From: a virus
IMG/VR virus record: IMGVR_UViG_3300034106_003513
Coordinates: 1 to 46,187 of that record
Length of the DNA stretch: 46,187 nucleotides
Direction: 5' to 3' (one strand)
Shown here: piece after piece, positions 9,215 to 46,187 of the stretch
Layout of the letters: each line of letters starts with the position of its first letter
Position numbering within the stretch: position 1 is the stretch's first letter
Notes under the pieces: generated by a model
Database searches by the model: none
What the model saw: the letters and a program-made list of their open reading frames with translations, nothing else
What the model was told of the DNA's origin: nothing
Translations under genes and position numbers: made by a program

Positions 9215-9709
9215 ATGAAGAAGCACAAGTTCTGGCTCCCCCGCGTCCTAAGCACCGTCGCTCTGGTCGCGGGCGTGGCCCTCGTCGCCAGCCTGGTCTC
9301 GGGCTGCGTGACCACTCCCGACGGCACCCGCCGCCCGCCCACGCCGACCGAGCTTGCCGCGATGGACGAGCCGACGTGGCAGGCGTACCTCGGGCGCGTC
9401 GAGTTCATCGCAACCGCGTGCGGGGCCGTCGCAGTCGAGCACGGCATGGACGCGGACAAGGTGCTCGAAGTCGCGCAGGTGCTCACCGCGATCGAAGATC
9501 CCGCGCGCGTGGACCTGTACTCCGTGGCCGTCCGCGCTGGCGTCTCGCCCACGTTGGCGCTGATCTTGACCGTCGAGGCCCAGGCGCTCTTGGACGCGCG
9601 CGGCGGGCTCCCAGGCGGTCCCAGGGGCATCGAGTTCTTGCTGCGCGCTGCCAATGCGTTCGTGCAGGGCGCGGCGATGGCTGAGGTTGCACGCACGGAA
9701 AGGGGGTGA
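9215..9709 (+). CDS. Phage-encoded lipoprotein
   Basis: A 164-residue protein with a classic lipoprotein signal: basic start MKKHK, hydrophobic core (about 10-27) and lipobox LVSGC with the cysteine at residue 31. The mature part is helical and alanine-rich with no catalytic motif seen. GTG 9203 lies in frame four codons upstream and overlaps the previous stop as GTGA, so it may be the true start; ATG 9215 gives the better signal peptide. A lipidated protein implies an outer membrane. It could be an outer-membrane spanin (long for that class) or an exclusion lipoprotein. Confidence 0.65.
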   Translation: MKKHKFWLPRVLSTVALVAGVALVASLVSGCVTTPDGTRRPPTPTELAAMDEPTWQAYLGRVEFIATACGAVAVEHGMDADKVLEVAQVLTAIEDPARVDLYSVAVRAGVSPTLALILTVEAQALLDARGGLPGGPRGIEFLLRAANAFVQGAAMAEVARTERG

Positions 9710-24478: not shown

Positions 24479-24702
24479 GCGCGGTGCGGTGTCCGCTTTG
24501 CCCCCGGTCCATGCCGCTCGCGGACTACCGCCAGCACTGGGACCGCTTCCACGCCGTCAACCTCGTCACCGGCGAGCGGCCCCAGTACCAGCCTCCCAAG
24601 ACTGCGGCCCGTGCGCCCGCTCCCGGTACGGACTGGATCGGGTACGGAGCAAGTTTTCGCACGTCCTCTGCTCCGCTGTTCCGAAGAACCGATCCAGCTT
24701 GA
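24475..24702 (+). CDS. Small C2H2-type zinc-finger protein
   Basis: A 75-residue protein with a GTG start overlapping the primase stop as GTGA. Residues 6-26 form a C2H2-like finger: C6, C9, H21 and H26 in CPLCPRSMPLADYRQHW and DRFH. The remainder is proline-rich and unstructured (ERPQYQPPKTAARAPAP). It is the last gene of the rightward operon. Its 3' half lies antisense to the HTH-like gene at 24566-24847. Confidence 0.65.
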   Translation: MSAVRCPLCPRSMPLADYRQHWDRFHAVNLVTGERPQYQPPKTAARAPAPGTDWIGYGASFRTSSAPLFRRTDPA

Positions 24703-24847
24703 TGGCGCTCCCCAAGCCCGTGCCGTAACCGGCGCAGATGCGGTCCATGACCGCGATGGACACGCCAGCGCGGCGACCGGCCTCGATGCGGGACAGTGAG
24801 AGGCGCGACAGCTCGGCCTTGACGTGAACAGCTAGCGGGTCGTGCAT
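24566..24847 (-). CDS. Helix-turn-helix-like protein ending the second accessory block
   Basis: A 93-residue frame whose first 57 residues look like an Xre-type HTH domain (HVKAELSRLSLSRIEAGRRA, then GVSIAVMDRICAGYGTGLGS, then AIKLDRFFG). The ATG at 24847 is the only start available in frame, and its ribosome site is weak. The C-terminal 35-40 residues overlap antisense with the zinc-finger gene. It may be a second regulator or a remnant of one. It would be the last gene transcribed from the 28.6 kb region. Confidence 0.55.
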   Translation of the reverse strand: MHDPLAVHVKAELSRLSLSRIEAGRRAGVSIAVMDRICAGYGTGLGSAIKLDRFFGTAEQRTCENLLRTRSSPYRERAHGPQSWEAGTGAARR

Positions 24848-24952
24848 GTGTGGGTTGCCAGCAGCGCGCGTTACGTCCCTGCGCTGGCGACAGGGTTGAG
24901 ACGATCCACCACGGGCGGCACACGCGCCTCACCGACAGACTCGTGGTGCTCC

Positions 24953-25033
24953 TCATGAGAGCAGATAGATGAACAGCAGGAAGAGGGCAGACACGATGAG
25001 CGTGTCGCGGTCCTCGCGGTCGAGTTTGGGCAT
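24953..25033 (-). CDS. 26-residue membrane peptide
   Basis: A 26-residue frame from ATG 25033 to TGA 24953. A strong ribosome site (GGGAGG) lies eight bases upstream, and the ATG shares a base with the upstream stop (TGATG). The peptide is a charged start followed by a hydrophobic helix (TLIVSALFLLFIYLLS), long enough to span a membrane. Small phage peptides like this can act as holins, inhibitors or exclusion factors; no function can be assigned. Confidence 0.5.
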   Translation of the reverse strand: MPKLDREDRDTLIVSALFLLFIYLLS

Positions 25034-25278
25034 CAGCGCGCCTCCCGTAGCTTGCGGCGCGCGTCACGTCGAACAGCTTCGCGTAGGTCGCGCCACACCC
25101 AGCGCTCGAACAGAATGTCCGTGCCGCCGGTCAAGCTCACGGACGCGCACGGGCTGTAACGCGGGTACTTCCCGTTCGGCTTGGTCGCCCACCAGATGCG
25201 CCCATCGGCCACCCGGAACGCAAGCAGGCTAGCGGCGTACTCGGCGCGGTCGTAGGGCGCGCGGCGTGTGGTAGTCAC
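25033..25278 (-). CDS. Hypothetical protein
   Basis: An 81-residue protein from GTG 25278 (GTGA overlap). It has a compact central part rich in Trp and Tyr (VADGRIWWATKPNGKYPRYS) and a basic C-terminal helix (LREAVRRDARRKLREAR). No recognised family. The basic tail could bind nucleic acid. Confidence 0.65.
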   Translation of the reverse strand: MTTTRRAPYDRAEYAASLLAFRVADGRIWWATKPNGKYPRYSPCASVSLTGGTDILFERWVWRDLREAVRRDARRKLREAR

Positions 25279-25484
25279 TGCCTCGCCTCCCAAGCTTCGC
25301 GCAGCCTCGCGGCGTCGCTGTTGCAGCTTGCAAGCTCGACAGCCGTGCGGCGCACCATCCGATGCGCACCAGCGCCTCCGATGAGCGCGACCGCTAGTAC
25401 CGCGCGACCGTGCTCGACCTCGGCCTCAAGCGCCTTCGCCTCGGCGGCGATGACGGCGCACCTTAGAGCCTCTAGAGCGCTCAT
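25275..25484 (-). CDS. Small helical hypothetical protein
   Basis: A 69-residue, alanine-rich helical protein (MSALEALRCAVIAAEAKALE, RMVRRTAVELASCNSDAARL). ATG 25484 overlaps the upstream stop as ATGA. A weakly hydrophobic segment (RAVLAVALIGGAGA) might associate with membrane. Function unknown. Confidence 0.65.
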   Translation of the reverse strand: MSALEALRCAVIAAEAKALEAEVEHGRAVLAVALIGGAGAHRMVRRTAVELASCNSDAARLREAWEARQ

Positions 25485-25774
25485 TTGCACACGATCCTTT
25501 CGACCTCGCGCATGTCAGTGAACTCGTCCGCGAGCAGCGCCGCTCGCTCCAGCACGCGCGCTAGTATCCCGGCGCGGTGCATGTCCAGAAAGCTAGCCAC
25601 GTGGCGCGATGGGTAGTCGTTGTCCCCAGGCGTCGCGTAGAGGCCCCAGTATCCCTCCAGCTCGCGCTCGACGTAGTACGCGGGCGCTGTGGTGTCGCCG
25701 TGGTGCAGGCACAGCCCAGGGCGAGCCAGTGAGGCGGCGTGGCAGCCGCAGGTGGTGTCGTAGGGGTCGGTCAT
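25481..25774 (-). CDS. Hypothetical protein with N-terminal Cys/His cluster
   Basis: A 97-residue protein from ATG 25774 (ATGA overlap). The N-terminus has a Cys/His cluster (TTCGCHAASLARPGLCLHHG) that could bind zinc. The rest is a small alpha/beta part (YYVERELEGYWGLYATPGDN, DYPSRHVASFLDMHRAGILA). I do not recognise the family. Confidence 0.65.
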   Translation of the reverse strand: MTDPYDTTCGCHAASLARPGLCLHHGDTTAPAYYVERELEGYWGLYATPGDNDYPSRHVASFLDMHRAGILARVLERAALLADEFTDMREVERIVCK

Positions 25775-25995
25775 GGTTGGACCTCGCCGCGTGCGCGCTC
25801 CAGTGCAGCGCGAGCTAGGTCGATGCCCATGATGCCGCACGACTCGCCGGGACAAGTCGCATCGTGAGACTCCACGATCATGCGCAGGGCTGAGTACAGC
25901 GCAGGCCCCGCGAACACGAGGTTCAGCATCTCCGGCGTCACCTCGCGCCCGTTCACCTCCAAGCGCGGCGGGGTGGGGAATTGCGGCGTAGTCAT
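25771..25995 (-). CDS. Small hypothetical protein
   Basis: A 74-residue protein from ATG 25995 (ATGA overlaps on both sides). It has a proline-rich start (TTPQFPTPPRLEVNGREVTP) and a helical body (YSALRMIVESHDATCPGESC). No function recognised. Confidence 0.65.
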   Translation of the reverse strand: MTTPQFPTPPRLEVNGREVTPEMLNLVFAGPALYSALRMIVESHDATCPGESCGIMGIDLARAALERARGEVQP

Positions 25996-26222
25996 TGGCG
26001 CACCTCGTTCGGCTCGCGGTCGAATCGTTTCGTTATGCGCCCCCACGAATCCTTCGGGCGCGTAACGGCGACGGCCACAGGCCCCTCGTCCACGCACAGG
26101 TCGTAGAAGCGCTCCACTGCGGTTTCGGCATCGTCCGCGAACACGCGAGTATCCCAGCGCTCGCCGCACTCTTCGGCCGTCACGATCCACGCCAAGCGCG
26201 GGCGGTATCGAGAATTGCTCAC
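25992..26222 (-). CDS. Small hypothetical protein
   Basis: A 76-residue protein from GTG 26222 (GTGA overlap). It has a mixed alpha/beta pattern with aromatic residues (RPRLAWIVTAEECGERWDTR, DDAETAVERFYDLCVDEGPV). No function recognised. Confidence 0.65.
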   Translation of the reverse strand: MSNSRYRPRLAWIVTAEECGERWDTRVFADDAETAVERFYDLCVDEGPVAVAVTRPKDSWGRITKRFDREPNEVRQ

Positions 26223-26419
26223 GGCCTCACCTCGCTCCCACCATGCCCCAGCGCGCTCAGCCCAAACTCCCGCAAGCAGTCCGCGAGGAGCCCGGTCTCG
26301 TCCCGCTCCAGGTCGCGCACAAGCACCCTTGAGCCATCGCTCCAGTACGCGCGCCCGTGCTCGTCGCGGAACAGGTCGGGCGAGCCGTTGCCGGTGCGCA
26401 CCTGAGTTAGCGCGCTCAC
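26219..26419 (-). CDS. Small hypothetical protein
   Basis: A 66-residue protein from GTG 26419 (GTGA overlap). Its first half looks like a small beta domain (LFRDEHGRAYWSDGSRVLVR), the second half is a helix (DETGLLADCLREFGLSALGH). No function recognised. Confidence 0.65.
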   Translation of the reverse strand: MSALTQVRTGNGSPDLFRDEHGRAYWSDGSRVLVRDLERDETGLLADCLREFGLSALGHGGSEVRP

Positions 26420-26742
26420 TTGCTCACCGCCTCTCCGGCGTAACGGTACGCACCGTCGATGCCGCTGGCACTCTTGCGCGTCCCCATGATCGGCACGAAC
26501 ACGTAGCTACCATCGTGCGCTTGCCCGCCGATCCAGTCGCCACGCCAGCCCGTGTAGCCTTGCTCGCGCTGCACCTTGGCATCGAAGCGCGCTAGTGCGA
26601 CCGCGCACGCCTCCCAAGCGGCTTGCTCGCCGGAATACTCGTCCGCGTACGGAACCAAGTAGTTGAACGCATCGCACCGCACGCGCCAACGTGCGCCCGT
26701 GGTGTTGCCCGGCGGTACGTAGCGAACCGAAATTGCTTGCAT
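26416..26742 (-). CDS. Hypothetical protein
   Basis: A 108-residue protein from ATG 26742, chosen because the leader GACTGGAGACGACAC precedes it; the frame is open further upstream to GTG 26844. It is alpha/beta and rich in Tyr and Trp (DAFNYLVPYADEYSGEQAAW, GYTGWRGDWIGGQAHDGSYV). No family recognised. Confidence 0.65.
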   Translation of the reverse strand: MQAISVRYVPPGNTTGARWRVRCDAFNYLVPYADEYSGEQAAWEACAVALARFDAKVQREQGYTGWRGDWIGGQAHDGSYVFVPIMGTRKSASGIDGAYRYAGEAVSK

Positions 26743-26869
26743 GTGTCGTCTCCAGTCTCGTCGTTTCAGTGTCCCCCAGCGCACGCGCGCTAGTAGGGGC
26801 GGCTTCCCGCTACGCGCACAGGGGCGCGTTTCGACCCTTGCCACGGGGTCTCTTCAATGGCGGGGGCGG

Positions 26870-27199
26870 TTACAGGCGCACCGTGCGCGCGTTCAATCGA
26901 GCGCGGCCGACACGTCCGATTTCGTAAAGCTCGGGCTGCTCACTCATCGCGCCCGCTCCGACCCATAGCGCGCGCTTGCGAAGCGTGTCCGTGTCGCACG
27001 TGTCGAGATCGTCCCAAGCGCCATACTCGCGCAACGTGCGGCGCAATTCGGCATCGTCGGCGATCCACTTCACGCGATCGACCCAGTAGCTAACGTGCTC
27101 GTCAACAGGGCCGCTACGCGCGCAGTCCGCAATTGCGTCGATCGGTGCGCGGAACAGTTCGCGCCCGCTAGTACCGTCCAAGTAGCTGTAGTGCTTCAC
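26870..27199 (-). CDS. Hypothetical protein
   Basis: A 109-residue protein from GTG 27199, preceded by GAGACTGGAGACGAGAC. It is mainly helical and acidic (LFRAPIDAIADCARSGPVDE, RVKWIADDAELRRTLREYGA, TDTLRKRALWVGAGAMSEQP). The N-terminal part (KHYSYLDG) looks beta. Function unknown. A stand-alone gene not overlapping its downstream neighbour. Confidence 0.65.
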   Translation of the reverse strand: MKHYSYLDGTSGRELFRAPIDAIADCARSGPVDEHVSYWVDRVKWIADDAELRRTLREYGAWDDLDTCDTDTLRKRALWVGAGAMSEQPELYEIGRVGRARLNARTVRL

Positions 27200-27214
27200 G
27201 TCTCGTCTCCAGTC

Positions 27215-27310
27215 TCATTCCACGCGGTCCGCGCCGCGCACGCTTGCCCCGTACCCTAGGGCGTGCGCCATCGAACAGGCGCGGGCCAGCGCGACGTGCG
27301 CTAGTGCCAC
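27215..27310 (-). CDS. Possible 31-residue small protein
   Basis: A short open frame from GTG 27310 to TGA 27215 that ends 15 bases before the next gene and partly overlaps its leader. It is alanine-rich and could form a helix (VALAHVALARACSMAHALGY). No clear ribosome site precedes it, so it is only a candidate; it could instead be part of a regulatory leader. Confidence 0.3.
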   Translation of the reverse strand: MALAHVALARACSMAHALGYGASVRGADRVE

Positions 27311-27340
27311 GGGCTTGTGCGCGCCCGTGTTGCGCGGAGG

Positions 27341-27565
27341 CTAGGTGCGGGCCGCGCGCTTGAGCACGTCAGCCTCAGCGAACGCGCCGTGGGTGAACGT
27401 GAATTGACCCACGATCGGATCGAGCTTGATCACCTTCGCCTTGCGGTACGCAGCAAGCGCGCGGAGCGCTTCGGGGCGAGTCAGTTGCGCCGTCTCACAC
27501 GCGAACGCGAGGAAGCTCTCTTCGGCGTTCACGATGCGCTGCGCTACGTCACGGGTTCCGCTCAA
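27341..27565 (-). CDS. Small phage protein with TTG start
   Basis: A 74-residue protein. TTG 27565 overlaps the upstream stop as TTGA; no ATG or GTG fits as well. The stretch FACETAQLTRPEALRALAAY, then RKAKVIKLDPIVGQFTFTHG and AFAEADVLKRA, resembles a small conserved phage family with the pattern KVIKLDxxxGQFxxxHGAFxEADVLxRA, function unknown. It may be a compact helical and beta domain. Confidence 0.65.
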   Translation of the reverse strand: MSGTRDVAQRIVNAEESFLAFACETAQLTRPEALRALAAYRKAKVIKLDPIVGQFTFTHGAFAEADVLKRAART

Positions 27566-27918
27566 GACGCAACCTCCCCACGCGCGCGGGCGAGGGCGGA
27601 ACGGGCCGCTTCCATGCGCGGAAACATTCCATGCCCGCGCCGTAGTAAGCGGATGTAGTCGAGCACGCCCTCGTCGGACTGCTCGGATAGGTCGCGGACC
27701 GACTGCTCTAGATCCGCCAGCGCCGCGTACAAGTCGGGCGCGGCGGCGATCAGGCGGGCGTTGGCTTCTTGCTCGTGCTTGTACCCGTAGACCGCTGCGA
27801 TGAGCGCATCGGTCCGCCCGCGCGGCCAATCGGGGTGCGCAATCTTGAGGCACCCGGCCGGAGCGCCAATGTCCGGGCGCACGCCCCACGGCCCGCGCGT
27901 GAATTGCGGCCCGCTCAC
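27562..27918 (-). CDS. Phage accessory protein with NARLIAAAPDLYAAL motif
   Basis: A 118-residue protein from GTG 27918 (GTGA overlap). It follows a very common phage layout: TRGPWGVRP near the N-terminus, a short beta part, then EANARLIAAAPDLYAALADL, often labelled Ea22-like. The last third is helical and basic (FPRMEAARSALARARGE). Function not known. It is a relative in style, though not necessarily in descent, of the gene at 15721-16056. Confidence 0.7.
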   Translation of the reverse strand: MSGPQFTRGPWGVRPDIGAPAGCLKIAHPDWPRGRTDALIAAVYGYKHEQEANARLIAAAPDLYAALADLEQSVRDLSEQSDEGVLDYIRLLRRGHGMFPRMEAARSALARARGEVAS

Positions 27919-28172
27919 GACCGCACCGCCTCTCCACCCGCGAACGTGTCCAAGTCAAGCGCGCGGAACTCGGCGAGCGTGCCGCACCATGCGGACCTGC
28001 GGGGCGCGTCGGCTAGCTCGGCCGCAATCTCGTCGGCCGTCCCGTTCCAAAGTGAGCGCGACGTGCGGCGCAGGTAGTGCTTAGCGCGCTCGCACCCGCC
28101 TATGTCTTTGCGCTGCGAATCAGTGCAGGGCCACTCCTCGCCGCAGCCAGCGCAGGTCTCTCGCGTGTCCAT
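27915..28172 (-). CDS. Cysteine-rich small protein, possible zinc binding
   Basis: An 85-residue protein from ATG 28172, preceded by CAACTTGGAGACGAGACG. Cysteines at residues 7, 10, 16 and 26 (TCAGCGEEWPC, GGCERAKHY) could bind zinc. The rest is helical and acidic (WNGTADEIAAELADAPRRSA). No recognised family. Confidence 0.65.
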   Translation of the reverse strand: MDTRETCAGCGEEWPCTDSQRKDIGGCERAKHYLRRTSRSLWNGTADEIAAELADAPRRSAWCGTLAEFRALDLDTFAGGEAVRS

Positions 28173-28293
28173 CGTCTCGTCTCCAAGTTGCGCCCCCAGT
28201 CGAGGGAGCTGGTCATGTGTGCGCGTAGCGACCGCGCGTAGCTCGTCAGTGCGGTAGCGAGCCGCATACGGCGCGGACGTGCGCCGTTTCGCT

Positions 28294-28614
28294 TTAGCGC
28301 CAGTACGTGCCAACGTACATCTCGCGCCCAATGCGACGGCGCGCGGCGTCGGATAGGTCCGCAAGCTCCGCGCGCAGGTCCGCGCCCGTTTCGTATTCGC
28401 GGAACCATTCGTACGGGTCCACGTAAACCATCGTCCCCCCGTCGTTCACGCGCACTTCGCCGTCGTTCATGGCCTGCTCAAGTTCCTGCTCGTCGGCGAT
28501 ATCGTCCGCGCGCGTACCGTGGCGCTCGTCCCACTCGGAAAGCGCTTCCTCCAACGAGGCGCGCACAGCGAGGAACATCGGGCCGAATTGGTTGCCGAAC
28601 AGGTAGCGTTTCAC
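28294..28614 (-). CDS. Hypothetical protein, first gene of the second accessory block
   Basis: A 106-residue, acidic protein from GTG 28614 after GGAGACTGAGAC. It reads YLFGNQFGPMFLAVRASLEE, then ALSEWDERHGTRADDIADEQ and VRVNDGGTMVYVDPYEWFRE, an alpha/beta pattern I associate with small phage accessory proteins but cannot name. It is the first gene leftward from the 28.6-29.0 kb regulatory gap. Confidence 0.65.
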   Translation of the reverse strand: MKRYLFGNQFGPMFLAVRASLEEALSEWDERHGTRADDIADEQELEQAMNDGEVRVNDGGTMVYVDPYEWFREYETGADLRAELADLSDAARRRIGREMYVGTYWR

Positions 28615-28747
28615 GTCTCAGTCTCCGTTGCGCCCCTTGCGAGGCTAGGTCCATCGCGCGCCGCACCATGCTGCGCACGCCCCCATTCTATCGACCCGAT
28701 TGCCTAGGTTTCCACACCTTCCACACTTTCATAAGTTTCTGTTCTGT

Positions 28748-28813
28748 AAAGTAGCGGCCCTAACCCCATACCACGAGCAGACTTACGCCATTTCCGCTAC
28801 TTTCGCTACTTTC
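28748..28813. promoter_or_regulatory. Operator-like GTAGC/GCTAC half-site cluster
   Basis: AAAGTAGCGG at 28748-28757 is the exact reverse complement of CCGCTACTTT at 28794-28803, followed directly by CGCTACTTTC at 28804-28813; another GCTAC is at 28821-28825. The layout (one GTAGC, about 40 bases, then tandem GCTAC half-sites nine bases apart) mirrors that at 17795-17848. A shared regulator is likely but untested. Confidence 0.55.
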
Positions 28814-28923
28814 TCCGGGCGCTACGCTATACGGGCGCTCCCCCTCTCCACACCTATACGTGTGTAGTAATGTTCATAACCTTCATGTGTATACGTAAAT
28901 GCCTATGGCGCAAGGGGTTACGC

Positions 28924-28951
28924 TCGACACTTTACCGTCCCAAAACATACT
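28924..28951 (+). promoter_or_regulatory. Candidate sigma70-type promoter for the late block
   Basis: TCGACA (28924-28929; five of six match to TTGACA) and CATACT (28946-28951; four of six match to TATAAT) are separated by 16 bases. The start of the candidate small terminase gene is 54 bases beyond. The match is by eye and the host's promoter preference is unknown. Confidence 0.4.
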
Positions 28952-29004
28952 AACCTTCGCCAAGGTAGCGACGCACCATGCACCAGCGAAACCTTAGCGC
29001 ATAG

Positions 29005-29957: not shown

Positions 29958-30311
29958 ATGCCGTGGACCCACGACTGGACTCGCGCGGAGGAGCGTTCGA
30001 TTCCGCAGGGTGCGGACTTTGTGGACGTGGTGCGCTTTCCGCTGACGGGTGGAGTGAGTGCGGACTGGAGCGGGTGGGCGGTGCGTGGTCAGATCCGCGC
30101 TGGGTATGCGGACGACGCTCCTCTGGTGGCTGACTTGGACTGTGTGATCGTGGACCCGGTGCAGCGGGTGGTGCGGTTCCGGCTGGGTGCGGCTGTGAGC
30201 GAGGGCATCAAGGACCAGTGCGGCCGATGGGACGCGGAGCTTGTGCGGGGCGAGCAGGTGGTGCGGTTCGTGGTGGGCAAGTGGGAGTTGGACCGAGAGG
30301 TGACGCGGTGA
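29958..30311 (+). CDS. Small beta-rich virion protein, first of the tail module
   Basis: A 117-residue protein. It follows a familiar phage pattern: QGADFVDVVRFPLTGG, DWSGWAVRGQIRAGYADDAP, then a strand and a GRWDAELVRGEQVVRFVVGK ending. Proteins of this type (a GADFxxxxxxxxxxG..xDLTGWxxRxQIR layout) occur among tail and appendage genes of many phages. It resembles the protein at 34538-34924, which closes the same module. The ribosome site is weak. Confidence 0.6.
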   Translation: MPWTHDWTRAEERSIPQGADFVDVVRFPLTGGVSADWSGWAVRGQIRAGYADDAPLVADLDCVIVDPVQRVVRFRLGAAVSEGIKDQCGRWDAELVRGEQVVRFVVGKWELDREVTR

Positions 30312-30345: not shown

Positions 30346-32250
30346 ATGACCAGCCAACCCGAGTCGATCAGCGTGGCGTATGCGGGGAGCAGCGTGGGCG
30401 AGCAGCGAGCGTTGCTTGCTGCGGCTCGGACGGTGGCTCGTGTTCCGCGAGTGGACGACCCGACGCCGGTGACGCTGTTGGACGCGAGCGCGGACTTGGT
30501 GTTCTTCCAGGGGAACACGCGCATGAGCCCGTTCACTGGGACGGGGGACACGGTGACGCGGGTCGCTACTAGCTACGCGGGCAGTGGTGGTCCGTGCGGG
30601 TTGCCGAAGGGGAACAGCTTGGACTCGCTGATGCCGTATCAGGGGTTCACGACGGAGTACGACACGGGTGGAGCGCACGCGGGTGGTTTGCGCATCAAGG
30701 TGTACCTGCGGACGAATCAGAAGATCAACCTGGAGTCGGGGGTTGGGTACAGGGCGATCGTGTTCCCGCAGGCCGCTAACGTCGCGGGGCGGTGCTTCCC
30801 TGCGCCGGAGGACATCACGGGTTGCTTCGTGTACGACTTGTTCGAGCCGGAGGAGGAGTACACGGGTGTCAGCAACGCCTCGGGGTACATCGACCTGACG
30901 CTGGTGTCGTCGCCGACCAAGCCTGGCTGGGACGGTCTGACGCTGACGAGCGGTGGTGGCGACGTGGTGTTCATCGTCAGTTACCGCGAGGTGACGGTCA
31001 ACGACGTGCCGACGGACGACTACCAGTACAACGAGCAGAGCGGCGAGAAGCACGAGCTGGTCTACACGCACACTCGTGGCGCGGCTGGTCATGCTGGGAT
31101 CTGGCATCCGTACACGAGCGTGCAGCGGATGGGGAATCTGACCAACGCAACGCAGTTGACCTCGTTGGGTGCGCCGTACCCGAGTTGCGCGGACAAGACC
31201 GAGCAGAACTGGTACTTGAAGCCGACGGTGATGGTGCCGCCTGGCACGCTAACCAACGGTCAGTCGCTCAAGATCCACTTGACGGGCAACGTCGGGTGGG
31301 GCGCGGCGGCGTACCTGATGGAGATGCTCATGTTCTTCTCGAATGCGGAGGAGAACGGCTGGGATCCTTGGTTGCACAAGTCGAGCTTGTGGCCGGCGGC
31401 GAACAACAGCCAGACGGCGCACTGGTACGAGCCGGGTCCGTACGGGACGTTCACGGGGGCGACGTGGACCAATGGCACGCTGACTCTGAGCGCGACGGGC
31501 ATTGGCTTGATCGCAGGCGACGCGCTGTGGTTGACGGCGGGCACGAACGCGACTAAAAGCGTGTACGTCATCACGGACAAGCCGACTGCGGACTCGGTGG
31601 TGCTTGGGCGGACGATCGGCACAAGCGCGACGAGCGGGATCGCGGGCTTCATCGGTGGTATCGCGCGTGACGTGGGAGGCGAGACCTGGATCGGTGGCCG
31701 CCTCAACTACGCGACGCACACTGGCCCGGCTGACAACGGCCCGGTGACGGTGTTGCAGAGCGAAATTGCAAGCGTTGGCAACGTCAACTTCGAGGTGGAC
31801 GTGACGATCACGCACTTCGCGCAGGCGTCGGGAACGGGCAACAACACGACGCACGCCTACCAGATCTCCGCGGAGTTCCGCATCGGTGGTGTGGGCAACG
31901 CGACGACGGGTGTAGTCGGTGCGACGGCGGGTACGGTTGCGGTGACGCGGCGATCGTGCGTGTTGAACTTGGCGAACGTGATCTGCAACCCGGTGACGGA
32001 GCCGTTGGGGATCACGCTGCTGTTCAAGGGCGCTGAGGCGACGACGGGGACGGGCGAGTACCTGTTCCCTGGCGCGCGTGGTTGGTACAGCCGAGCGCCG
32101 TTCGATCCGCGCACGGGCATGGGGTATCCGCTGCGGTTTACGTCAAGCTCGGCTGCGCCCGCTGTGTGCACGGCCAATCCGTGCGACGGAACGCGGTTGA
32201 CGCGCGTGAGGACGATCGACGTGAAGTACATGGGGTCACAGAGCCGATGA
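30346..32250 (+). CDS. Putative virion structural or receptor-binding protein
   Basis: A 634-residue, beta-rich protein with a clear ribosome site (GGAGCAGGAGCAG). It has no coiled coil or membrane segment and no recognised catalytic motif. The composition (many Gly, Thr, Ser, Asn; for example SATGIGLIAGDALWLTAGTN and TGVVGATAGTVAVTRRS) is typical of fibres, spikes and other exposed virion proteins. Its stop overlaps the next start (the hydrolase) as ATGA, so the two are probably made together. A fibre or spike role is inferred from context. Confidence 0.55.
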   Translation: MTSQPESISVAYAGSSVGEQRALLAAARTVARVPRVDDPTPVTLLDASADLVFFQGNTRMSPFTGTGDTVTRVATSYAGSGGPCGLPKGNSLDSLMPYQGFTTEYDTGGAHAGGLRIKVYLRTNQKINLESGVGYRAIVFPQAANVAGRCFPAPEDITGCFVYDLFEPEEEYTGVSNASGYIDLTLVSSPTKPGWDGLTLTSGGGDVVFIVSYREVTVNDVPTDDYQYNEQSGEKHELVYTHTRGAAGHAGIWHPYTSVQRMGNLTNATQLTSLGAPYPSCADKTEQNWYLKPTVMVPPGTLTNGQSLKIHLTGNVGWGAAAYLMEMLMFFSNAEENGWDPWLHKSSLWPAANNSQTAHWYEPGPYGTFTGATWTNGTLTLSATGIGLIAGDALWLTAGTNATKSVYVITDKPTADSVVLGRTIGTSATSGIAGFIGGIARDVGGETWIGGRLNYATHTGPADNGPVTVLQSEIASVGNVNFEVDVTITHFAQASGTGNNTTHAYQISAEFRIGGVGNATTGVVGATAGTVAVTRRSCVLNLANVICNPVTEPLGITLLFKGAEATTGTGEYLFPGARGWYSRAPFDPRTGMGYPLRFTSSSAAPAVCTANPCDGTRLTRVRTIDVKYMGSQSR

Positions 32251-33440
32251 CGTACACCTCTGGCATGGCGTTCAATCGCTCGACGAGCGACTTCCCTGGC
32301 GCGATCACGGCGACGGGGCCGAACGTCATTGGCTTCTACGAGTACGCGATGGCGGGCCAGTGCTCGATCGCGTGCTATCGCCCCACGGCCAGCTTCAGCA
32401 ACGCGCCGTGGCTGATCGTGGTGAAGGGCGGGCTGGGGTACAACCCTGGCGAGCGCGCTTCGTACGAGACGCTGGGCAGCGATACGTACGTGCGGCACTT
32501 CATCGAGCGCGGGTACGTGGTGTTCATCATCGACTACCCGGCGAACCCGTCGAATCTCGACAGCCCGTATGCGTTCAACGACATCCGGCCTGTGGCGATG
32601 TGGCCCGACGCGGTGTTCTGGTGCGCGCGCGCGATTCAAGCGATCAAGGACAACAAGGACTCAACGACTCCGCTGGGCTTGAAGCTGCTCGGGTCGGGCA
32701 ACTCGATCGACCCCAACTACGGGATTTGGTGGGGCAACTCGTGGGGCGGCACGATCGGTCTCATGCTCGCGTGGATGCCCGACTGGATGGTCGAGCGGTA
32801 CAGCACGCCTGCGCTTCGGCGCGCGGGGGATCGGCCCAAGTCGTCGCATCGGCTCAAGGTGTGGACGGCGTTCGAGCCGCAGTTGGACTTGACGCAGTTT
32901 GACATTGAGCCGTTGAGCTTGTCGGCGAAGCCTACGTACATCGACGACGCGGGCTTGGGCGCGATCTACATGGACGACAAGGCGCAGTGGTTGATGCGCA
33001 AAGACTCGCTGGACAAGTGGAGCACGACGGCGCTGGAGGACAAGAAGATCAGCCCGTGGTGGATGCTCCAAGCTGGGTATCCCGAGAACGCGGACGTGCT
33101 GATTTGCGTGCGATGGCCCGCGAGCCCGGCGCTTTCGATCCCTGAAGAAGCAAATCTGACGCCGGACGACTTCGATCCGGGTACGGTGCCGACGCAGGCT
33201 GACCGCGACGCAGGCAAAGCGCAGCGCGACCCGCACCATCCGTTTCAGGCGCGTGCGTTGCAGACGGAGCTTGCGTCGTACGGCAACGAGAGTTCGTTGT
33301 GCCGCAAGAGCATCATCCGGTGGGGTAGCGGCACGACGGGGACGTGGGCCAACCCTGGCGGTGCGTTCATCGGTCAATCGGGCTTCGCAGAGTTGGTCTA
33401 CAACGCCGCAGTGACGCACGCGGGCTACCCGGAGGCATGA
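32247..33440 (+). CDS. Alpha/beta-hydrolase-fold protein in the virion module
   Basis: A 397-residue protein from ATG 32247 (ATGA overlap). It shows an alpha/beta-hydrolase layout: a strand-turn PWLIVVKGGLGYNPGE (about residues 55-70), YVVFIIDYPAN (about 90-100), a nucleophile elbow GNSWGGT (163-169, S165), and a C-terminal His (H391 in AVTHAGYPEA) that could be catalytic. The Asp of the triad was not identified. It has no signal peptide. Between fibre-like genes it may be a virion esterase acting on surface sugars or lipids. A LysB-like or other role cannot be excluded. Confidence 0.7.
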   Translation: MTYTSGMAFNRSTSDFPGAITATGPNVIGFYEYAMAGQCSIACYRPTASFSNAPWLIVVKGGLGYNPGERASYETLGSDTYVRHFIERGYVVFIIDYPANPSNLDSPYAFNDIRPVAMWPDAVFWCARAIQAIKDNKDSTTPLGLKLLGSGNSIDPNYGIWWGNSWGGTIGLMLAWMPDWMVERYSTPALRRAGDRPKSSHRLKVWTAFEPQLDLTQFDIEPLSLSAKPTYIDDAGLGAIYMDDKAQWLMRKDSLDKWSTTALEDKKISPWWMLQAGYPENADVLICVRWPASPALSIPEEANLTPDDFDPGTVPTQADRDAGKAQRDPHHPFQARALQTELASYGNESSLCRKSIIRWGSGTTGTWANPGGAFIGQSGFAELVYNAAVTHAGYPEA

Positions 33441-33441: not shown

Positions 33442-34167
33442 ATGAGCGGACTTGGCAACGTTGGGGCAAACTACTACGACATCCTGCTCAACAACCGGAT
33501 CGACTCTGGTATTGAGATCGCTCAGGCGTTTGGGATCACGGCGCCGCAGCCTCCGTCATCGGTCGCGCCGCTCTACATCTCGTTGCACACGGCTGATCCG
33601 GGGAACTCGGGTTCGTTTGAAACCTCGGTGACCAATTACAAGCGCGCGGCGTATCAGCGAACGCAGTTTTCAGTTGGCGGATCGAACTTCTTCCCGTGGA
33701 CTAAAACACAGGGAGGTTCCTTGGCTCCGACGACGTGGACCAACTACAGTTCGATCTCGTTCGACACTGTCAGCGGCAGCGACACGATCACGCACTGGGG
33801 CATCTGGACCGCGCTGACGGGAGGCGGCTTCATCCTCGGCGGCCCGCTGCGCGCGTCGGGCGCGTCGGTGAAGCTGGCGTATGCGACGGCTGTGGGCACG
33901 ATCCACTCGGTCGGGCACGGTCTGACGGCGGGCAACACGATCCGCGTCTGGAACGCCTACGACAACTTCAACGGCGGCACGGCTCCGCTGACGACGCCCG
34001 GTGTGACGCGAGTGGTGGATACGGGTCCGAACACGGACGACTTTGACATCACGGTTAATCTGGACGCTGTCGGCCCGGTGGGCTACGTCCTCTCCGGCTC
34101 GCTGAGCTTGGTGTCGGGTAGCGTGCCCTCGATCGCCGCTGGCGGGATTGTGATCTCGGTCACATGA
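33442..34167 (+). CDS. Phage tail-appendage protein with an inserted domain
   Basis: A 241-residue protein starting one base after the hydrolase stop. The N-terminal part matches a small phage family with LYISLHTADPGNSGSFETSV, a repeated YKRAAYQRTQF-like strand, and SISFDTVSGSDTITHWGIWT. The usual ending (a strand after GPLRASGASV, then the last strands) is split by about 65 residues (AVGTIHSVGHGLTAGNTIRV through TVNLDAVGPVGYVLSG) that look like a separate beta domain. The family is commonly found among tail fibre and structural genes. Confidence 0.65.
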   Translation: MSGLGNVGANYYDILLNNRIDSGIEIAQAFGITAPQPPSSVAPLYISLHTADPGNSGSFETSVTNYKRAAYQRTQFSVGGSNFFPWTKTQGGSLAPTTWTNYSSISFDTVSGSDTITHWGIWTALTGGGFILGGPLRASGASVKLAYATAVGTIHSVGHGLTAGNTIRVWNAYDNFNGGTAPLTTPGVTRVVDTGPNTDDFDITVNLDAVGPVGYVLSGSLSLVSGSVPSIAAGGIVISVT

Positions 34168-34538: not shown

Positions 34539-34924
34539 TGCCGCAGCCGGTGGTGCGAAAGGCTGACGTGTGGCAAGGCGCGGACGTGACGTTCCGTGAG
34601 CGTCTGGTCACGGGCAACGGCGGGACGGCGCTGGTCCAGTCTGACGTGACCTCGTGGTCGCTGCGGGTGTTCCGCGCGGGCGACGAGAAGAACGCGAAGC
34701 GGATCGTCACTGACGCGCCCGCGACCAGCTACTTCTTCGACACGCTCCAGCTCACGGACTGGACGCGCGACACAGTGGGCTACAACTTCCAGTACCGGTT
34801 GCCCTACTCGTCGTTCAAGGCGAGCGCGGCCACGTACGTGTTCGAGTTCGCCATCAAGACGGGCTCGTACGGGACGATTTTCTCGGTGTGGGAGATCCGC
34901 TATCTGCCGGTGGCGAGCGTCTAA
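34538..34924 (+). CDS. Small beta-rich virion protein, end of the tail module
   Basis: A 128-residue protein whose ATG shares a base with the upstream stop (TGATG) and whose stop TAA leads straight into the terminase start (TAATG). It begins like the protein at 29958: VWQGADVTFRERLVTGNGG then VTSWSLRVFRAGDE, and continues with strands and aromatic residues (TVGYNFQYRLPYSSFKASAA, TYVFEFAIKTGSYGTIFSVW). The shared opening suggests a common family. Confidence 0.6.
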   Translation: MPQPVVRKADVWQGADVTFRERLVTGNGGTALVQSDVTSWSLRVFRAGDEKNAKRIVTDAPATSYFFDTLQLTDWTRDTVGYNFQYRLPYSSFKASAATYVFEFAIKTGSYGTIFSVWEIRYLPVASV

Positions 34925-36459
34925 TGGACTTTGCTGACGACATTCTCGTCGAGCTGCGCGGCGCTCCACGCGACCTGCTGCGCTCGATCCTGGACTACAC
35001 CGGCAAGGTGAAGAACCGGGAAGTGATCGTCGTCGGCCCCGGTGGCACGGGCAAGTCGCGCGGTATCTGCTACGTGCTCGCGTACCTGTGCGAGACGCAT
35101 CCCGGCTTGCGCGTGCTGCTGACACGCTCGACGCGTGAGAGCATGACCAGCTCGACGCTCGTTGAGTGGGAGGCTTGCTTCCCGCCTGAGCATCCAGTGC
35201 TGGACGGGCCTCAGCGTGAGGGACGCAGCATCTACCACTTCCCCAACGGGTCCGAGGTGGCGGTCATCGGCCTCGACAAGCCGGGCAAGCTGTTCTCGAC
35301 CAAGTGGGACATCATCTACGCGGAGGAGCTGACCGGAGGCGGTGCTGACTCAGGCGTGGAGAAGAACACCTGGGAGCTGTTCTTCCGTGGTCTGCGCGGC
35401 GAGGTGATGGTCAACAACCAGCGGTTGCTCATCGGGTCGTGCAACCCGAGCTACCCGTCGCACTGGGTCAAGCAGCGCATCGACGCGGGCTCGTGCGAGG
35501 CGTACCTGTCGGTCCACAAGGACAACCCGGCCTACCACGACGGCGTGGACTGGACGGACAACGGGCGCGCGTACCTCGACGGCCTGGGTCGCATGAGCGG
35601 CCACAACAAGCGGCGTCTGCTGCATGGCGAGTGGTGCGCGGCGACGGGTCGCGTGTACGACGCCTGGGACGACGACGTGCATGTGGTGGACGCGACGGTC
35701 TGGACGCAGCGCGGTCAGGCGACGGTCGTGGTGCCGGACGGAATGATCCCGATGGACTGGTGCTTCGCCTCGTTCGACTGGGGCTGGACCGACCCGGCTG
35801 TGCTTCAAGTGTGGGGCGTGGACAAGGACCGCAGGCTTTGGATGCTCGCGGAGGTGTTCAAGACGCGCGCGGGTGAGGGCACGGCTCAGTCGGGCTTGGA
35901 CTGGTTCGCCGAGCGCGTGTCGGAGTTCTATAAGGAGTTCGACTTGCGCGCGTTGGTGTACGACCCGTCGCGCGCGGAGACGGGCGAGAAGTTCAACCGG
36001 CGCATCTCGTTCGAGCTTGGGTTTGACGTGCCTTCGTTCGCCATCAAGGCGATGAACCGGCACGGGACGGCGCAGGACTTTGGCGGCATCGACATGGTGC
36101 GCTCGCTGCTGTCGCGGCGTGTGCAAGGTCGTCCGCAGATGAACTTCGTCAAGAACACGCTACGCTTTGGGCGCGACGAGTTCTTGCGCACCAAGGGCAA
36201 GCCGACCTGCACGGTCGAGGAGTTTCCCGCGTATGTCTACGAAGAACCGAAAGAGGGGCGCTCGAACCGCGACAAGCCAGCGGACGGACAGTCCGACCAC
36301 GGGCTTGACGCCGCTCGCTACGCAGCCGCCTATTTCTGGACCCGAGACATGGGCGAACCTTCCAAGAACGTGCGATGCCCGCGCGGTACGGTCGGCCACA
36401 ATCCCTCGTGGCCTGGCGGCAAGACTTTCGAGGAGTGGTTCGAGGGGCAGGATTCATGA
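34924..36459 (+). CDS. Terminase large subunit (ATPase-nuclease)
   Basis: A 511-residue protein from ATG 34924. The ATPase has a P-loop GPGGTGKS (38-45), LLTRSTRESMTSS (the strand after), and IIYAEEL as Walker B with E134/E135. The nuclease part has SFDWGWTDP (D285), LVYDPSRAE and a C-terminal DHGLDAARYA (D458, D462). This is the motor that packages DNA into proheads and cuts it. It is followed at once by the portal gene. ATG 34924 was chosen because it overlaps the upstream stop (TAATG) and gives the usual length. Confidence 0.95.
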   Translation: MDFADDILVELRGAPRDLLRSILDYTGKVKNREVIVVGPGGTGKSRGICYVLAYLCETHPGLRVLLTRSTRESMTSSTLVEWEACFPPEHPVLDGPQREGRSIYHFPNGSEVAVIGLDKPGKLFSTKWDIIYAEELTGGGADSGVEKNTWELFFRGLRGEVMVNNQRLLIGSCNPSYPSHWVKQRIDAGSCEAYLSVHKDNPAYHDGVDWTDNGRAYLDGLGRMSGHNKRRLLHGEWCAATGRVYDAWDDDVHVVDATVWTQRGQATVVVPDGMIPMDWCFASFDWGWTDPAVLQVWGVDKDRRLWMLAEVFKTRAGEGTAQSGLDWFAERVSEFYKEFDLRALVYDPSRAETGEKFNRRISFELGFDVPSFAIKAMNRHGTAQDFGGIDMVRSLLSRRVQGRPQMNFVKNTLRFGRDEFLRTKGKPTCTVEEFPAYVYEEPKEGRSNRDKPADGQSDHGLDAARYAAAYFWTRDMGEPSKNVRCPRGTVGHNPSWPGGKTFEEWFEGQDS

Positions 36460-40831: not shown

Positions 40832-41377
40832 ATGATCACTTCTCCCATCGGCGGGCCGGGCATCGGCTACTTCCCGCCGAACATCGACGTTGTGGTGTAC
40901 AACCGCAGCACTGCTACGGCTCCTGGGGTCGCGTTCGCCATCGGCGACGTTGTGCAGCTCGACCTCACGGATGTTGGCCAAACCGCTGGCGCTTCGACCA
41001 CCGGGGCCACGACTGTCAACACGCCCTACGGCGCGGAAGGTGCGACGGCGTTCTCGAACGCTGTCGAGCCGACCGCCGCTGGCATCAAGGCTGGCATCTT
41101 GGGTGTGTGCTTGGAGCCGATCGCGGTTGGCTCCAAGGGGCGCATTCGTTTGCAGGGGATCGTTGACAGCGTGTTCGTCATCGCGGCATCCGGCAGCGTC
41201 GCTCCTGGCGCTCCGTTGGTGGCGACGACTGCAAAGAACCTCGATCTCGTGCTCGCTGTGAACGAGCGCATCATCGGGATCGCGCTGTCTTCGACTGCGA
41301 CCCCGACGACCCGTACCCTGGGCGGCGCGGTGCTGTTCAACGGCATCACCGGCTTCGGCATGGAAGGCGGCAGCTAA
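40832..41377 (+). CDS. Capsid decoration or head-stabilising protein
   Basis: A 181-residue, Gly/Ala/Thr-rich beta protein (AGASTTGATTVNTPYGAEGA, KGRIRLQGIVDSVFVIAASG, SVAPGAPLVATTAKNLDLVL). It has no helix of note and follows the capsid gene, the usual place for small decoration proteins or head fibres. The strand pattern around GDVVQLDLTDVG and APGAPLVATTA resembles DUF2190-type head proteins. Exact function unknown. Confidence 0.65.
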   Translation: MITSPIGGPGIGYFPPNIDVVVYNRSTATAPGVAFAIGDVVQLDLTDVGQTAGASTTGATTVNTPYGAEGATAFSNAVEPTAAGIKAGILGVCLEPIAVGSKGRIRLQGIVDSVFVIAASGSVAPGAPLVATTAKNLDLVLAVNERIIGIALSSTATPTTRTLGGAVLFNGITGFGMEGGS

Positions 41378-42093: not shown

Positions 42094-45000
42094 ATGCCCG
42101 ACGTACCGCTCCCCTACCCGATCGGCGGCCTGAGCGACAACTTCGCGCACGACGCTCAGCCGCCTCGGACGACCCGCGACGCGCAGAACGAGCGCTCGGT
42201 CGATCCCAAGAGCAACCGCATCCGTGGCGGGCAGCGAGCGGGCTTCTCGCGCTTCTCGGAGACCGCGCTTGCGGCTGGAGCGGTGCGGTCTGCGGTGCAG
42301 GTCACGTTCGACGCGCGCCAGACCGACTACACCAACGCGACGACGAGCGCGGTAGGGGACCTGTCGGAGTGGACGGCTGCGCTCAACAGCGGCGAGGGCG
42401 TGCCGGCCATCGTCCACGACTCTCAGGGCAACAAGTACGCGATCGACGGCAAGGCCACGATCGTCAAACTCAATCGCGACGGCGTGCGCGTGTACACGTT
42501 CACGCTCCCGGTCCGCGACGAGGCGCAAAAGGTGCGCGCGTTGGCGATCGACGTGGGCGACAACCTGTACGTCGGCGTCAGCGAAGGCGGCGACCAGAGC
42601 AAGGCGTGGCTGCGCCGGTACGCTCCCGACACGGACAAGAACCTCGTGCTCCAGTGGGAGATCGTCACGGGTGAGTTCGTCGAGCAACTGGTCCTGCGCG
42701 ACGACAAGCTGTACGCGGCGGTGAACGACACGTCGCGCAAGCGTTCGTCGTGGATTCAGTACGAGAACCTGTCGCTTGGCTCGGGTGCGACGGTGGCGTT
42801 CCGGCGCGACGGCATCCCGTATCCGTTGAACGACCTCGACGTGAACTTTCGCGGCGAAGTGCTGACGGCGAGCGGTCCGCGCAGTCCGCTGGCGAACCCG
42901 CTCGACAAGCGCTACTACGACCCGACGCTTCCCGACCACACGGCGGTGTTTGATGCGCAACGCTGGGATCCGACGCAGCTACCTGAGTGGGACCGACGCA
43001 AATGGGCTTGGTTCGTAGCCGAGGATCTGGAGTCGGAGGACGGCAGCGACGTAGAGGTGTGGCCGGACACAAGGGGTCGCGGTCTGTGCGTGTTCGAGCG
43101 CGATGTCTCGACGCCTTCGGGTGCGACTGCGTTCGTTGCGCCCAAGTACCGCTCACGCGGCCTGGGTGGAAAGCCTGCGGTGCAGTTCTCGGGGAGCTAC
43201 AACCGCATGGTGAGCCCGCCGAGCGTCAACGACAGCGCGGGCGTGAACGACATCCAGCCGACCCTGTTCCCCAACCGTCGCGGTCACCTGATCGTGATGG
43301 TGGTCCAGTTCGGCGCTGACGCGACGCAGCAGGGCCAGCTTTGGTCGCAATCGAACAGTGCGTGGTCGAGCGGCATCAACGCGGCGTACATCAACTGTCG
43401 GTCGAACACAGGGCTCACGGGTGCGGCGGGCGCGATCTCGGTGCGGCATGACGTGCGGTCGAGCGTGGCGGGAGAGACCACGGCTCCGATCTCAACCGGC
43501 ACGTCTCCCAACTACGTCAGCGGCTTCGTCGCATCGGCCCCGCAAGCGGCGATCGTGACGCTGCTGGTTGACGCCAACACCTGCTCGGACGGCTTCAACG
43601 CCTCGTACTTCCGCGTCAACGGCGCGACGGTGTCGAAGTGGCTGGACAAGGGCCAGTTCACGGCAACGGGCAACCGGACGATCCTCGGCTCGCTCACGAA
43701 CGGCACCTTTGGGCCTTCGGTGTCGATCTCGGAGTTCATCGTCCTGCGCCAGTACACGGACCCCGAGGACGGTCTGGAGAAGGTCGCAACCGTCCCCGAC
43801 GTGAACAGCACGATCGACTACGGGACTGCCGACAGCGCAAACGTGGGCGACCACGACGACACGGTGAGCGACACCGAGGTCGAGCGCATTGAGGGCTTCC
43901 TCGCGTGGAAGTACGGCATCTCGCATCTGCTCGACGACGGCGGGCGGTCTGGCACCACGCTTCCCTCGGGCTCGGAGATCCTGTGGACGGGCAGCGCCTT
44001 CACTCAGCCGCGCGCGTTGAACCTCCCCGACCCGACTGCTGACTCGGCTGCGGATGCGTCGCTGGCGGTCCCTGCGGCGCTTGCTACGGGCGGTGCTGAC
44101 GTGGACACGACCGGCGTGTCGTTCAACGCCTGGGTGCGCGTGGACACGCCTGGGGCCTTCCCAAGCAGCTTCACGTCCCGTCGCATCGCGCGCTGGGTGG
44201 CGAGCAACCGTGGCTTCGAGGTCACGCTCAAGCACAAGTCGGAGCTGCTGTTCATCGTCGGCCCCGGCACTCAGACGCGGCGCACGACGTTGGAAGTCGA
44301 TGTCGCGGTCTACAACGGCACCTCGGGCACGACGTACACCTCGTCGGATCTGAAGGTGGACGTGCTCAACACGCCTGCCAACGAGAGCGCCGCGCGCCAG
44401 TTGTGGGTCATGGTCACGATGGCCTACCGCAAGTCGGGCAGCAACGGCGAGCTGCGCATCTACATCAACGGGACCAACCAGTACAACGGCGTCATCCCGA
44501 CCGTGATGCAGTCGCCCGGCAACAGCCAGGCGTTCACGCTTGGTGGCTCCGCGTCGGCGTCGGGGCTGCCGATGCAGATCGACGAGGTCGAGTTCCTGCG
44601 GACATTCCTCCAGCCCGCCAACGTCACGCCTCGCTTCGCCAACGGTCAGGGTGCGTTCCAGACTCCGAACGACACCACGATCGGCCTGTGGCATTTCGAC
44701 GAGACCGTCGCTCCGCTGGGCACAAGCACGGACGCCTCGACCAACGCCAACACGGTCACGCTTGCGGGCAACGCAGAGGTGCCTGCTGGCGTCAACGGTC
44801 GCGTCCAGCCCATCGGTGGCGGTCCGGTCTCGCGCGTGCTGCATCCGTTCACGTCGCGCGGCACGGCGTCAGGCTCGACCTTCGCGCCGCCCAATCCCAA
44901 CGGGCGCGACGCTGACACGCTTGACCGCGACCTGCTCTCGAACCAGCCGATCACGGCCAAGTGGTCGCCTCCGCGTGGAGCCGTGCGCTGGGTCGCTGCG

Positions 45001-46187
45001 GCTGGCGGCATGGGCTACGCAGTCAAGGCTGGGGCGACGACGGACTTCTTCACGGTCGGCCCGCGTCGCGTGCTGGATGACGGCACGGTCAGCACGACCG
45101 GCACCAACGCGGCGGCGATCCGCAAGCTGCTCGACACCGGCTCGTCGGCGGCTGGTCGCTGGGCGTTCGAGCTTCGAGACGAGAGCAACCAGCCCATCGA
45201 CTACCCGTTCGAGCATCCGCGCATCGCCGTGGACAAGTTCGACAACGTGTACGTGCCGGGGCAGTTCCCCTCCACGTACGCGCCGACGCGCTACAGCCTC
45301 TACGCCTTCCGCTCGGGCGGCGACGTGTCGAGCGGGCTTGCGGTCCCGTTCCTGCGCTACCAGGCGGGCACGGCTGCGGATGGCTCGATCCGCGAGGCGC
45401 TTGCGGTCTCGATCGACCCGCGCATCCCCGACTACACCGGCAACCCGACGCTGATCGAGCGGCCTGAGTTCGTCGCGCTCGGTGTCGAGACGACCGCGCC
45501 CGGTCAAGCGGCGGTGCATCAGGTGCGGCTCGTCAACGCCACGCCCAACAACGCCTCGGCTCGCGCGGTCCAGTACCTTGGCGTCGTCGCTGGGCGGCTG
45601 GTCAAGTTCGGACAGGGTGCAGTCTCGACCGTGTCGTCCACGGCGTTCGCGGCGTCGGCGAAGTACATCGCGTCGGTCAACGCTTACGGTAAAGCTTTTT
45701 TCACTGACGGCGTCAGCTACCGCTACTACGAGCCGCGCACTGGCGTTGTGTCGCGCTGGACGGCGACGGATGGCGGCTCGATCGTGCCTCGCTACAAGCT
45801 GCTCACGCTCTGGCGCGGTCGCATGGTGTTGGCGCGCGGTGACGACGACCCGCAGAACTGGCAAATGAGCGAGGCGGGCAACCCGTTCGGCTGGGACTTC
45901 TTCCCGCCCGACAGCCCGCTCGCCACGCAAGCCATCATCGGCAACGAGGCCGAGATCGGTCGCGTCCCCGACGCCATCACGGCGATGATCCCGTACGACC
46001 GCGAGCGGTTGATCTTCGGGTGCGACCACACCATCTACATCATGTGGGGCGACCCGATGGAGAACGGCTCCATCGTGCTCGCGTCCGACACGACCGGCAT
46101 GGCGTTCGGCTCGTCGTGGGCCAAGGACGCCGAGGGCGTGCTCTACTTCTTCGGCTCGCGCGGCGGCGTCTACGCGATGACGCCTCA
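42094..46187 (+). CDS. 1583-residue LamG-bearing tail nozzle/fibre protein, 5' part (continues at 1-785)
   Basis: A frame open from ATG 42094 to the window end, continuing through the circular join to TAA 783-785: 1583 residues. Segments: a small N-terminal domain (PLPYPIGGLSDNFAHDAQPP); a beta part with many Trp/Asp; a first concanavalin/LamG-like domain (about 365-610, ending in VERIEGFLAWKYG); a second LamG-like domain (about 665-870, with VSFNAWVRVD, ELRIYINGT and MQIDEVEFLR); and a long beta C-terminal part including RLIFGCDHTIYIMWGDP. LamG domains often bind sugars, so host-surface binding is possible. Podovirus nozzle or stabiliser identity is inferred. Confidence 0.9.
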   Translation, partial: MPDVPLPYPIGGLSDNFAHDAQPPRTTRDAQNERSVDPKSNRIRGGQRAGFSRFSETALAAGAVRSAVQVTFDARQTDYTNATTSAVGDLSEWTAALNSGEGVPAIVHDSQGNKYAIDGKATIVKLNRDGVRVYTFTLPVRDEAQKVRALAIDVGDNLYVGVSEGGDQSKAWLRRYAPDTDKNLVLQWEIVTGEFVEQLVLRDDKLYAAVNDTSRKRSSWIQYENLSLGSGATVAFRRDGIPYPLNDLDVNFRGEVLTASGPRSPLANPLDKRYYDPTLPDHTAVFDAQRWDPTQLPEWDRRKWAWFVAEDLESEDGSDVEVWPDTRGRGLCVFERDVSTPSGATAFVAPKYRSRGLGGKPAVQFSGSYNRMVSPPSVNDSAGVNDIQPTLFPNRRGHLIVMVVQFGADATQQGQLWSQSNSAWSSGINAAYINCRSNTGLTGAAGAISVRHDVRSSVAGETTAPISTGTSPNYVSGFVASAPQAAIVTLLVDANTCSDGFNASYFRVNGATVSKWLDKGQFTATGNRTILGSLTNGTFGPSVSISEFIVLRQYTDPEDGLEKVATVPDVNSTIDYGTADSANVGDHDDTVSDTEVERIEGFLAWKYGISHLLDDGGRSGTTLPSGSEILWTGSAFTQPRALNLPDPTADSAADASLAVPAALATGGADVDTTGVSFNAWVRVDTPGAFPSSFTSRRIARWVASNRGFEVTLKHKSELLFIVGPGTQTRRTTLEVDVAVYNGTSGTTYTSSDLKVDVLNTPANESAARQLWVMVTMAYRKSGSNGELRIYINGTNQYNGVIPTVMQSPGNSQAFTLGGSASASGLPMQIDEVEFLRTFLQPANVTPRFANGQGAFQTPNDTTIGLWHFDETVAPLGTSTDASTNANTVTLAGNAEVPAGVNGRVQPIGGGPVSRVLHPFTSRGTASGSTFAPPNPNGRDADTLDRDLLSNQPITAKWSPPRGAVRWVAAAGGMGYAVKAGATTDFFTVGPRRVLDDGTVSTTGTNAAAIRKLLDTGSSAAGRWAFELRDESNQPIDYPFEHPRIAVDKFDNVYVPGQFPSTYAPTRYSLYAFRSGGDVSSGLAVPFLRYQAGTAADGSIREALAVSIDPRIPDYTGNPTLIERPEFVALGVETTAPGQAAVHQVRLVNATPNNASARAVQYLGVVAGRLVKFGQGAVSTVSSTAFAASAKYIASVNAYGKAFFTDGVSYRYYEPRTGVVSRWTATDGGSIVPRYKLLTLWRGRMVLARGDDDPQNWQMSEAGNPFGWDFFPPDSPLATQAIIGNEAEIGRVPDAITAMIPYDRERLIFGCDHTIYIMWGDPMENGSIVLASDTTGMAFGSSWAKDAEGVLYFFGSRGGVYAMTP
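46061..46187. repeat. Terminal direct repeat, right copy (circular assembly overlap)
   Basis: Identical to bases 1-127. Removing one copy gives a 46,060-bp circle. See the left copy for interpretation. Confidence 0.95.

Follow-up and report, generated by a model that had tools for sequence, protein, structure and literature searches.

General features of the phage genome

The window analysed here is the whole 46,187-nt sequence of an uncultivated phage (IMG/VR record IMGVR_UViG_3300034106_003513). A 127-nt direct repeat is present at its two ends (1–127 and 46,061–46,187), and the window is therefore probably a complete circular assembly of approximately 46.06 kb. Because the encoded adaptor resembles that of phage SU10, the portal weakly resembles the SU10 portal, and a protein weakly matching T7 gp14 is also encoded, the phage is probably a podophage. 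A concanavalin-A-like lectin domain (Laminin_G_3; E 3e-8) is present in a very large tail protein (>1364 aa), which is encoded at 42,094–46,185 and whose ORF crosses the circular junction into positions 15–785. The 1428-aa protein encoded at 4361–8647 shows a weak match to a DarB-like antirestriction family (E 8e-6) and, judged by its position, is probably an internal virion protein.

Genes of the fibre and hydrolase locus

The locus under study lies on the plus strand. It contains genes encoding a 117-aa protein (phrog_1084; 29,958–30,311), a 634-aa fibre-like protein that is a probable receptor-binding protein (30,346–32,250), a 397-aa protein with an alpha/beta hydrolase fold (32,247–33,440), and a 241-aa gp80-type fibre protein (33,442–34,167; Pfam ‘Podophage GP4 fiber I protein gp80’, E 1.9e-14), followed by the terminase large subunit gene (34,888–36,459). 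The hydrolase ORF, which the original prediction described as translationally coupled to the 634-aa gene, is real: its ATG at 32,247 overlaps the TGA of the upstream ORF (ATGA). Relatives align from this ATG, supporting it as the start codon, and the in-frame TTG upstream at 32,082 was rejected on the same grounds. Promoter/terminator and tandem-repeat scans of the 29–35 kb region yielded nothing beyond chance. The earlier placement of the hydrolase inside the tail module is loosely right, as the gene belongs to an adhesin module that adjoins the terminase and is flanked by the gp80-type fibre gene.

The 634-aa protein itself has no family match and no detectable Mtd_N domain. Its homologue in the divergent viral contig L035 starts with a Major-tropism-determinant N-terminal domain (Mtd_N; E 1e-11) and also matches a PHROG tail protein. 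This domain, together with the conserved pairing of the two genes, supports the predicted link of the hydrolase to a fibre-like, probably receptor-binding protein. In contig L014, the gene at the place of phrog_1084 has a weak, below-cut-off resemblance to LtfC, the protein that attaches lateral fibres in phage DT57C (PMC10713586). From this context, we infer that the fibre and hydrolase genes form a host-recognition module.

Fold of the 397-aa protein

The 397-aa protein has an esterase-type alpha/beta hydrolase fold similar to that of hormone-sensitive-lipase (HSL) and BD-FAE enzymes, and the predicted fold is supported in three ways. The Pfam BD-FAE profile (PF20434) matches the window protein below the cut-off (21.1 bits against 26.8 bits, E 2.4e-4); the relative in contig L042 passes the same cut-off with 27.4 bits, and the L014 sequence taken with its frame neighbours reaches 28.7 bits, also above it. 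A profile of eight family members was compared by hhalign with a profile built from E. coli Aes and 12 related HSL-type esterases. The match covers residues 13–178 with 97.6% probability (E 4.7e-12); in it, S165 falls on the nucleophile of the esterases, and G61-G62 coincide with their oxyanion loop. The controls, which included a reversed profile, 10 column-shuffled profiles and unrelated profiles, gave E-values of 0.1 or worse. With E. coli Aes alone the comparison gave 6% probability, so that the 13-member profile is needed to detect this relationship.

Structure prediction and comparison with esterases had been proposed as a check, and the AlphaFold2 (AF2) model indeed matches esterases and lipases. 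The model has a pLDDT of 53 and a pTM of 0.66, with core elements at roughly 70–90, and an earlier model made from seven close sequences (pLDDT 32) was left out of the fold search. The order of strands and helices is that expected for the alpha/beta hydrolase fold. The central sheet is present and the nucleophile elbow follows strand 5, as indicated by the AF2 secondary structure, Foldseek and hhalign. Foldseek matched the model to 462 PDB chains at E ≤ 0.001, and nearly all of the top 50 are esterases, lipases and related hydrolases. Since the TM-scores to the best match, Thermogutta Est2, are only moderate (0.44/0.60), the model supports the fold and is unfit for fine detail. Model confidence is low in the loop of residues 290–335. 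The C-terminal half of the protein (after residue 178) could not be aligned to known esterases, and PDB sequence searches with the hydrolase family gave chance-level matches only.

Candidate active-site residues

The predicted nucleophile elbow GNSWGG, with S165 (codon 32,739–32,741), is present, and it aligns to the GDSAG motif of esterases. In the alignment of relatives, S165, D308 (33,168–33,170), D328 and H330 (both in the D328-P329-H330 codons, 33,228–33,236) are invariant in every sequence but L035, where they are replaced by Asp, Gln, Met and Asp, respectively. G163 is likewise kept in every lineage other than L035. In the HGG(G) oxyanion loop, G61-G62 are invariant; the His is present in L014, L042 and L035 and is replaced by Lys or Arg in the group of the window protein.

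The catalytic His of the alpha/beta hydrolase fold normally lies between the last strand and the last helix. The superfamily also includes non-catalytic members, and this His is expected in the catalytic ones only. In the window protein the last strand comprises residues 354–358 of the AF2 model, and the slot after it (residues 359–376) contains no His, nor does the aligned loop of any relative. The original prediction had named H391 (33,417–33,419) as the catalytic His of an S165/Asp/H391 triad. This assignment was rejected, as H391 follows the last helix (377–390) and is conserved only among close relatives (59–63% identity), its position being occupied by Ala, Ser or a gap in the divergent L014, L042 and L035. 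The only widely conserved His residues are H201, found in all sequences, and H330. H201 was also rejected as the catalytic His: although invariant, it lies just before strand 6, a position that in this fold is on the side of the sheet away from the active site. H330 belongs to the conserved D-P-H motif after strand 7 (285–289), close to D308 and D328, which also follow strand 7 in the poorly modelled loop. As no family member has the usual His beyond the last strand, the general base would have to be non-canonical if the enzyme is active, with H330 as the best candidate and D308 or D328 as the candidate acid. Judged from these alignments, a non-canonical triad and a loss of activity are both possible.

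The L035 homologue (5641–6828) carries an Asp at the nucleophile position (ANDWGA), similar to the HDWG motif of haloalkane dehalogenases and epoxide hydrolases. It was not called as such an enzyme, as those also require a His, which is absent from the expected place in L035. The absence of the Ser, H330 and both candidate Asp residues from L035 implies that at least one lineage can do without catalysis. The joint loss of these candidate catalytic residues is suggestive only, and could partly reflect general divergence, because 31 of the 87 positions that do not vary among the other relatives are not preserved in L035.

Joint exchange of the fibre and hydrolase genes

The relatives analysed comprise just five divergent lineages, and in the collections searched all of them come from viral metagenome contigs. 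No family relatives were retrieved from INPHARED phages, PLSDB plasmids or GTDB species genomes, the genome scans relying on short peptide seeds that distant relatives may escape, and no match to the hydrolase family was found among 50,697 phage records. Wherever the flanks are readable, the gene order is the same: in the window, as in L005, L006/L007, L014, L035 and L042, the hydrolase gene immediately follows a fibre-like gene, and these fibre-like genes are homologous. Profile comparison also shows homology between the partner fibres of the two branches (92%, E 6e-7).

The terminase large subunit was used as the conserved backbone for comparing phages. The fibre and hydrolase genes are exchanged horizontally as a pair. 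For example, L005 shares 99–100% identity with the window in terminase, portal and capsid, whereas its fibre-like protein and hydrolase share 46% and 60% identity, respectively. L014 shares 99% identity in the terminase and 34% in the hydrolase, and its fibre is too divergent from that of the window to be detected by tblastn; DNA similarity between the two resumes exactly at 33,442, the start codon of the gp80-type gene, which is the first gene beyond the exchange boundary. Conversely, in L006–L008 the fibre/hydrolase pair is retained at about 45%/59% identity beside a terminase only 24% identical. L042 shares the gene order of the window with a terminase 46% identical. The hydrolases of L003 and L006, which reside on different phage backbones, have a dN/dS of 0.19. 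This ratio and the contrast in identity between backbone and pair show that the hydrolase gene is under purifying selection and moves jointly with the fibre gene.

Two other regions also vary among these phages. A second swapped block lies between the capsid and adaptor genes (window 40,832–41,377; L014 13,254–14,502). In L014, L016 and L017 the block encodes a protein about 31% identical to that of the window and contains about 0.76 kb more DNA, and the flanking proteins stay 96–99% identical. The region at 24,500–29,000, with many short minus-strand ORFs, differs strongly between near-identical phages.

Possible roles of the hydrolase

The exchange of the hydrolase together with the fibre suggests a role in handling the host surface, and the genomic context supports host recognition rather than lysis. 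The explanation we favour, at close to even chances, is that the hydrolase is a partner of the fibre, either virion-associated or acting in virion assembly, and an esterase that deacylates host surface sugars. The 397-aa protein would sit at or near the receptor-binding fibre and would remove an ester-linked acyl group, probably acetyl, from the host surface polysaccharide during adsorption. If the enzyme is active, H330 may serve as a relocated base with D308 or D328 as the acid. The computations show the fold, the conserved elbow with S165, the pairing of the gene with that of the fibre-like protein in one operon, their joint exchange and the purifying selection; the virion location, the substrate and the catalytic activity of this putative esterase are proposed by analogy with SGNH-fold tailspike esterases. 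A virion esterase acting on polysaccharide had been proposed before; its fold and its fibre link stand, and the S165/Asp/H391 triad does not.

As the main alternative, the protein could be a pseudo-esterase that has lost the catalytic His and acts with the fibre as a glycan-binding or fibre-tip domain. The canonical His is indeed absent from every relative, and in L035 the gene persists behind the fibre gene at unchanged size despite the loss of the Ser, D308, D328 and H330. Eukaryotic neuroligins and the gibberellin receptor GID1 are comparable in principle. However, a pure binder would not need S165, G163, D308, D328 and H330, which all the other lineages keep while sharing 34–63% identity with the window protein, and we regard this explanation as possible and rather doubtful. 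A similarly tentative proposal is a family of adhesins derived from the esterase fold through loss of catalysis, as suggested by the fibre pairing and the Ser-to-Asp change in L035 and presumed to bind glycans, or alternatively a family in which the His has moved past strand 7.

The hydrolase gene immediately follows the fibre gene and is inherited with it, which would also suit a cytoplasmic factor that assembles or chaperones the fibre and is not part of the virion; fibre chaperones are often encoded just after their fibre. Such a helper leaves the conserved nucleophile elbow unexplained and, to our knowledge, no fibre chaperone has an alpha/beta hydrolase fold; we consider it improbable. 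The original prediction also raised a function in lysis, as a LysB-like mycolyl-ester or lipid esterase in a phage without a standard endolysin. The esterase-type fold would permit this, and a partial scan of the genome, covering most small ORFs, agrees in that no endolysin was recognised, which counts as weak evidence. Nevertheless, a lysis enzyme is disfavoured and appears very unlikely: the gene is co-exchanged with the fibre gene, it matches no cutinase/LysB Pfam profile, and a holin/spanin-like set lies elsewhere. This set (8652–9709), possibly the holin and spanins, comprises small membrane proteins and, after them, a probable lipoprotein (VSGCVTTP), and no endolysin was recognised in its vicinity; the spanin-like membrane protein/lipoprotein pair suggests a Gram-negative host. 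The generic esterase fold would be compatible with a cargo or moron gene whose product serves host metabolism, such as by hydrolysing intracellular esters, but the strict pairing with the fibre gene across several phage lineages makes this hardly credible.

Comparison with known systems

The window protein shares its fold, an HGG-type oxyanion loop and the GxSxG Ser with HSL-type carboxylesterases (E. coli Aes; Thermogutta terrifontis Est2, PDB 5aob) and with BD-FAE enzymes. It differs from them in lacking a His after the last strand, in a long insert after strand 7, in a C-terminal half that cannot be aligned, and in the restriction of its family, within the searched collections, to viral contigs. 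LysB of mycobacteriophages is a phage-encoded, cutinase-like alpha/beta hydrolase esterase; in contrast, the window gene lies in an adhesin module and not in a lysis cassette.

Most known phage esterases that trim acyl groups off surface sugars are SGNH domains within fibres. Precedents for virion esterases include G7C gp63.1, Possum gp66, Moo19/B2 and SGNH fibres of Klebsiella prophages (PMC13123978, PMC9569702, PMC11654681). As in the SGNH tailspikes and fibres (G7C gp63.1, Possum gp66, Klebsiella prophage), the esterase-like protein of the window is tied to a putative receptor-binding apparatus, and deacetylation is the probable reaction. In contrast to these, it has an alpha/beta hydrolase fold rather than an SGNH fold and, instead of forming a fibre domain, is a distinct protein whose gene is translationally coupled to that of the fibre. 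A different esterase fold travels here in a gene of its own, tied to that of a probable receptor-binding protein. The locus may be described as a putative virion-associated esterase module of a known kind with a different fold, possibly including pseudoenzymes. S165, D308, D328 and H330, together with the natural variant L035 that has lost all four, are the features that could distinguish an enzyme from a binding module at the fibre.

The partner fibre of L035 resembles the Mtd-type receptor-binding proteins of Bordetella phages in its N-terminal domain, unlike the 634-aa protein of the window, and the literature yielded no description of Mtd together with a partner hydrolase. Structural matches in BFVD include proteins named ‘esterase’ from Arthrobacter phages Faja and Seahorse and an unnamed protein of Gordonia phage Jabberwocky (E about 1e-5 to 1e-3), which share 10–13% amino acid identity with the window protein.
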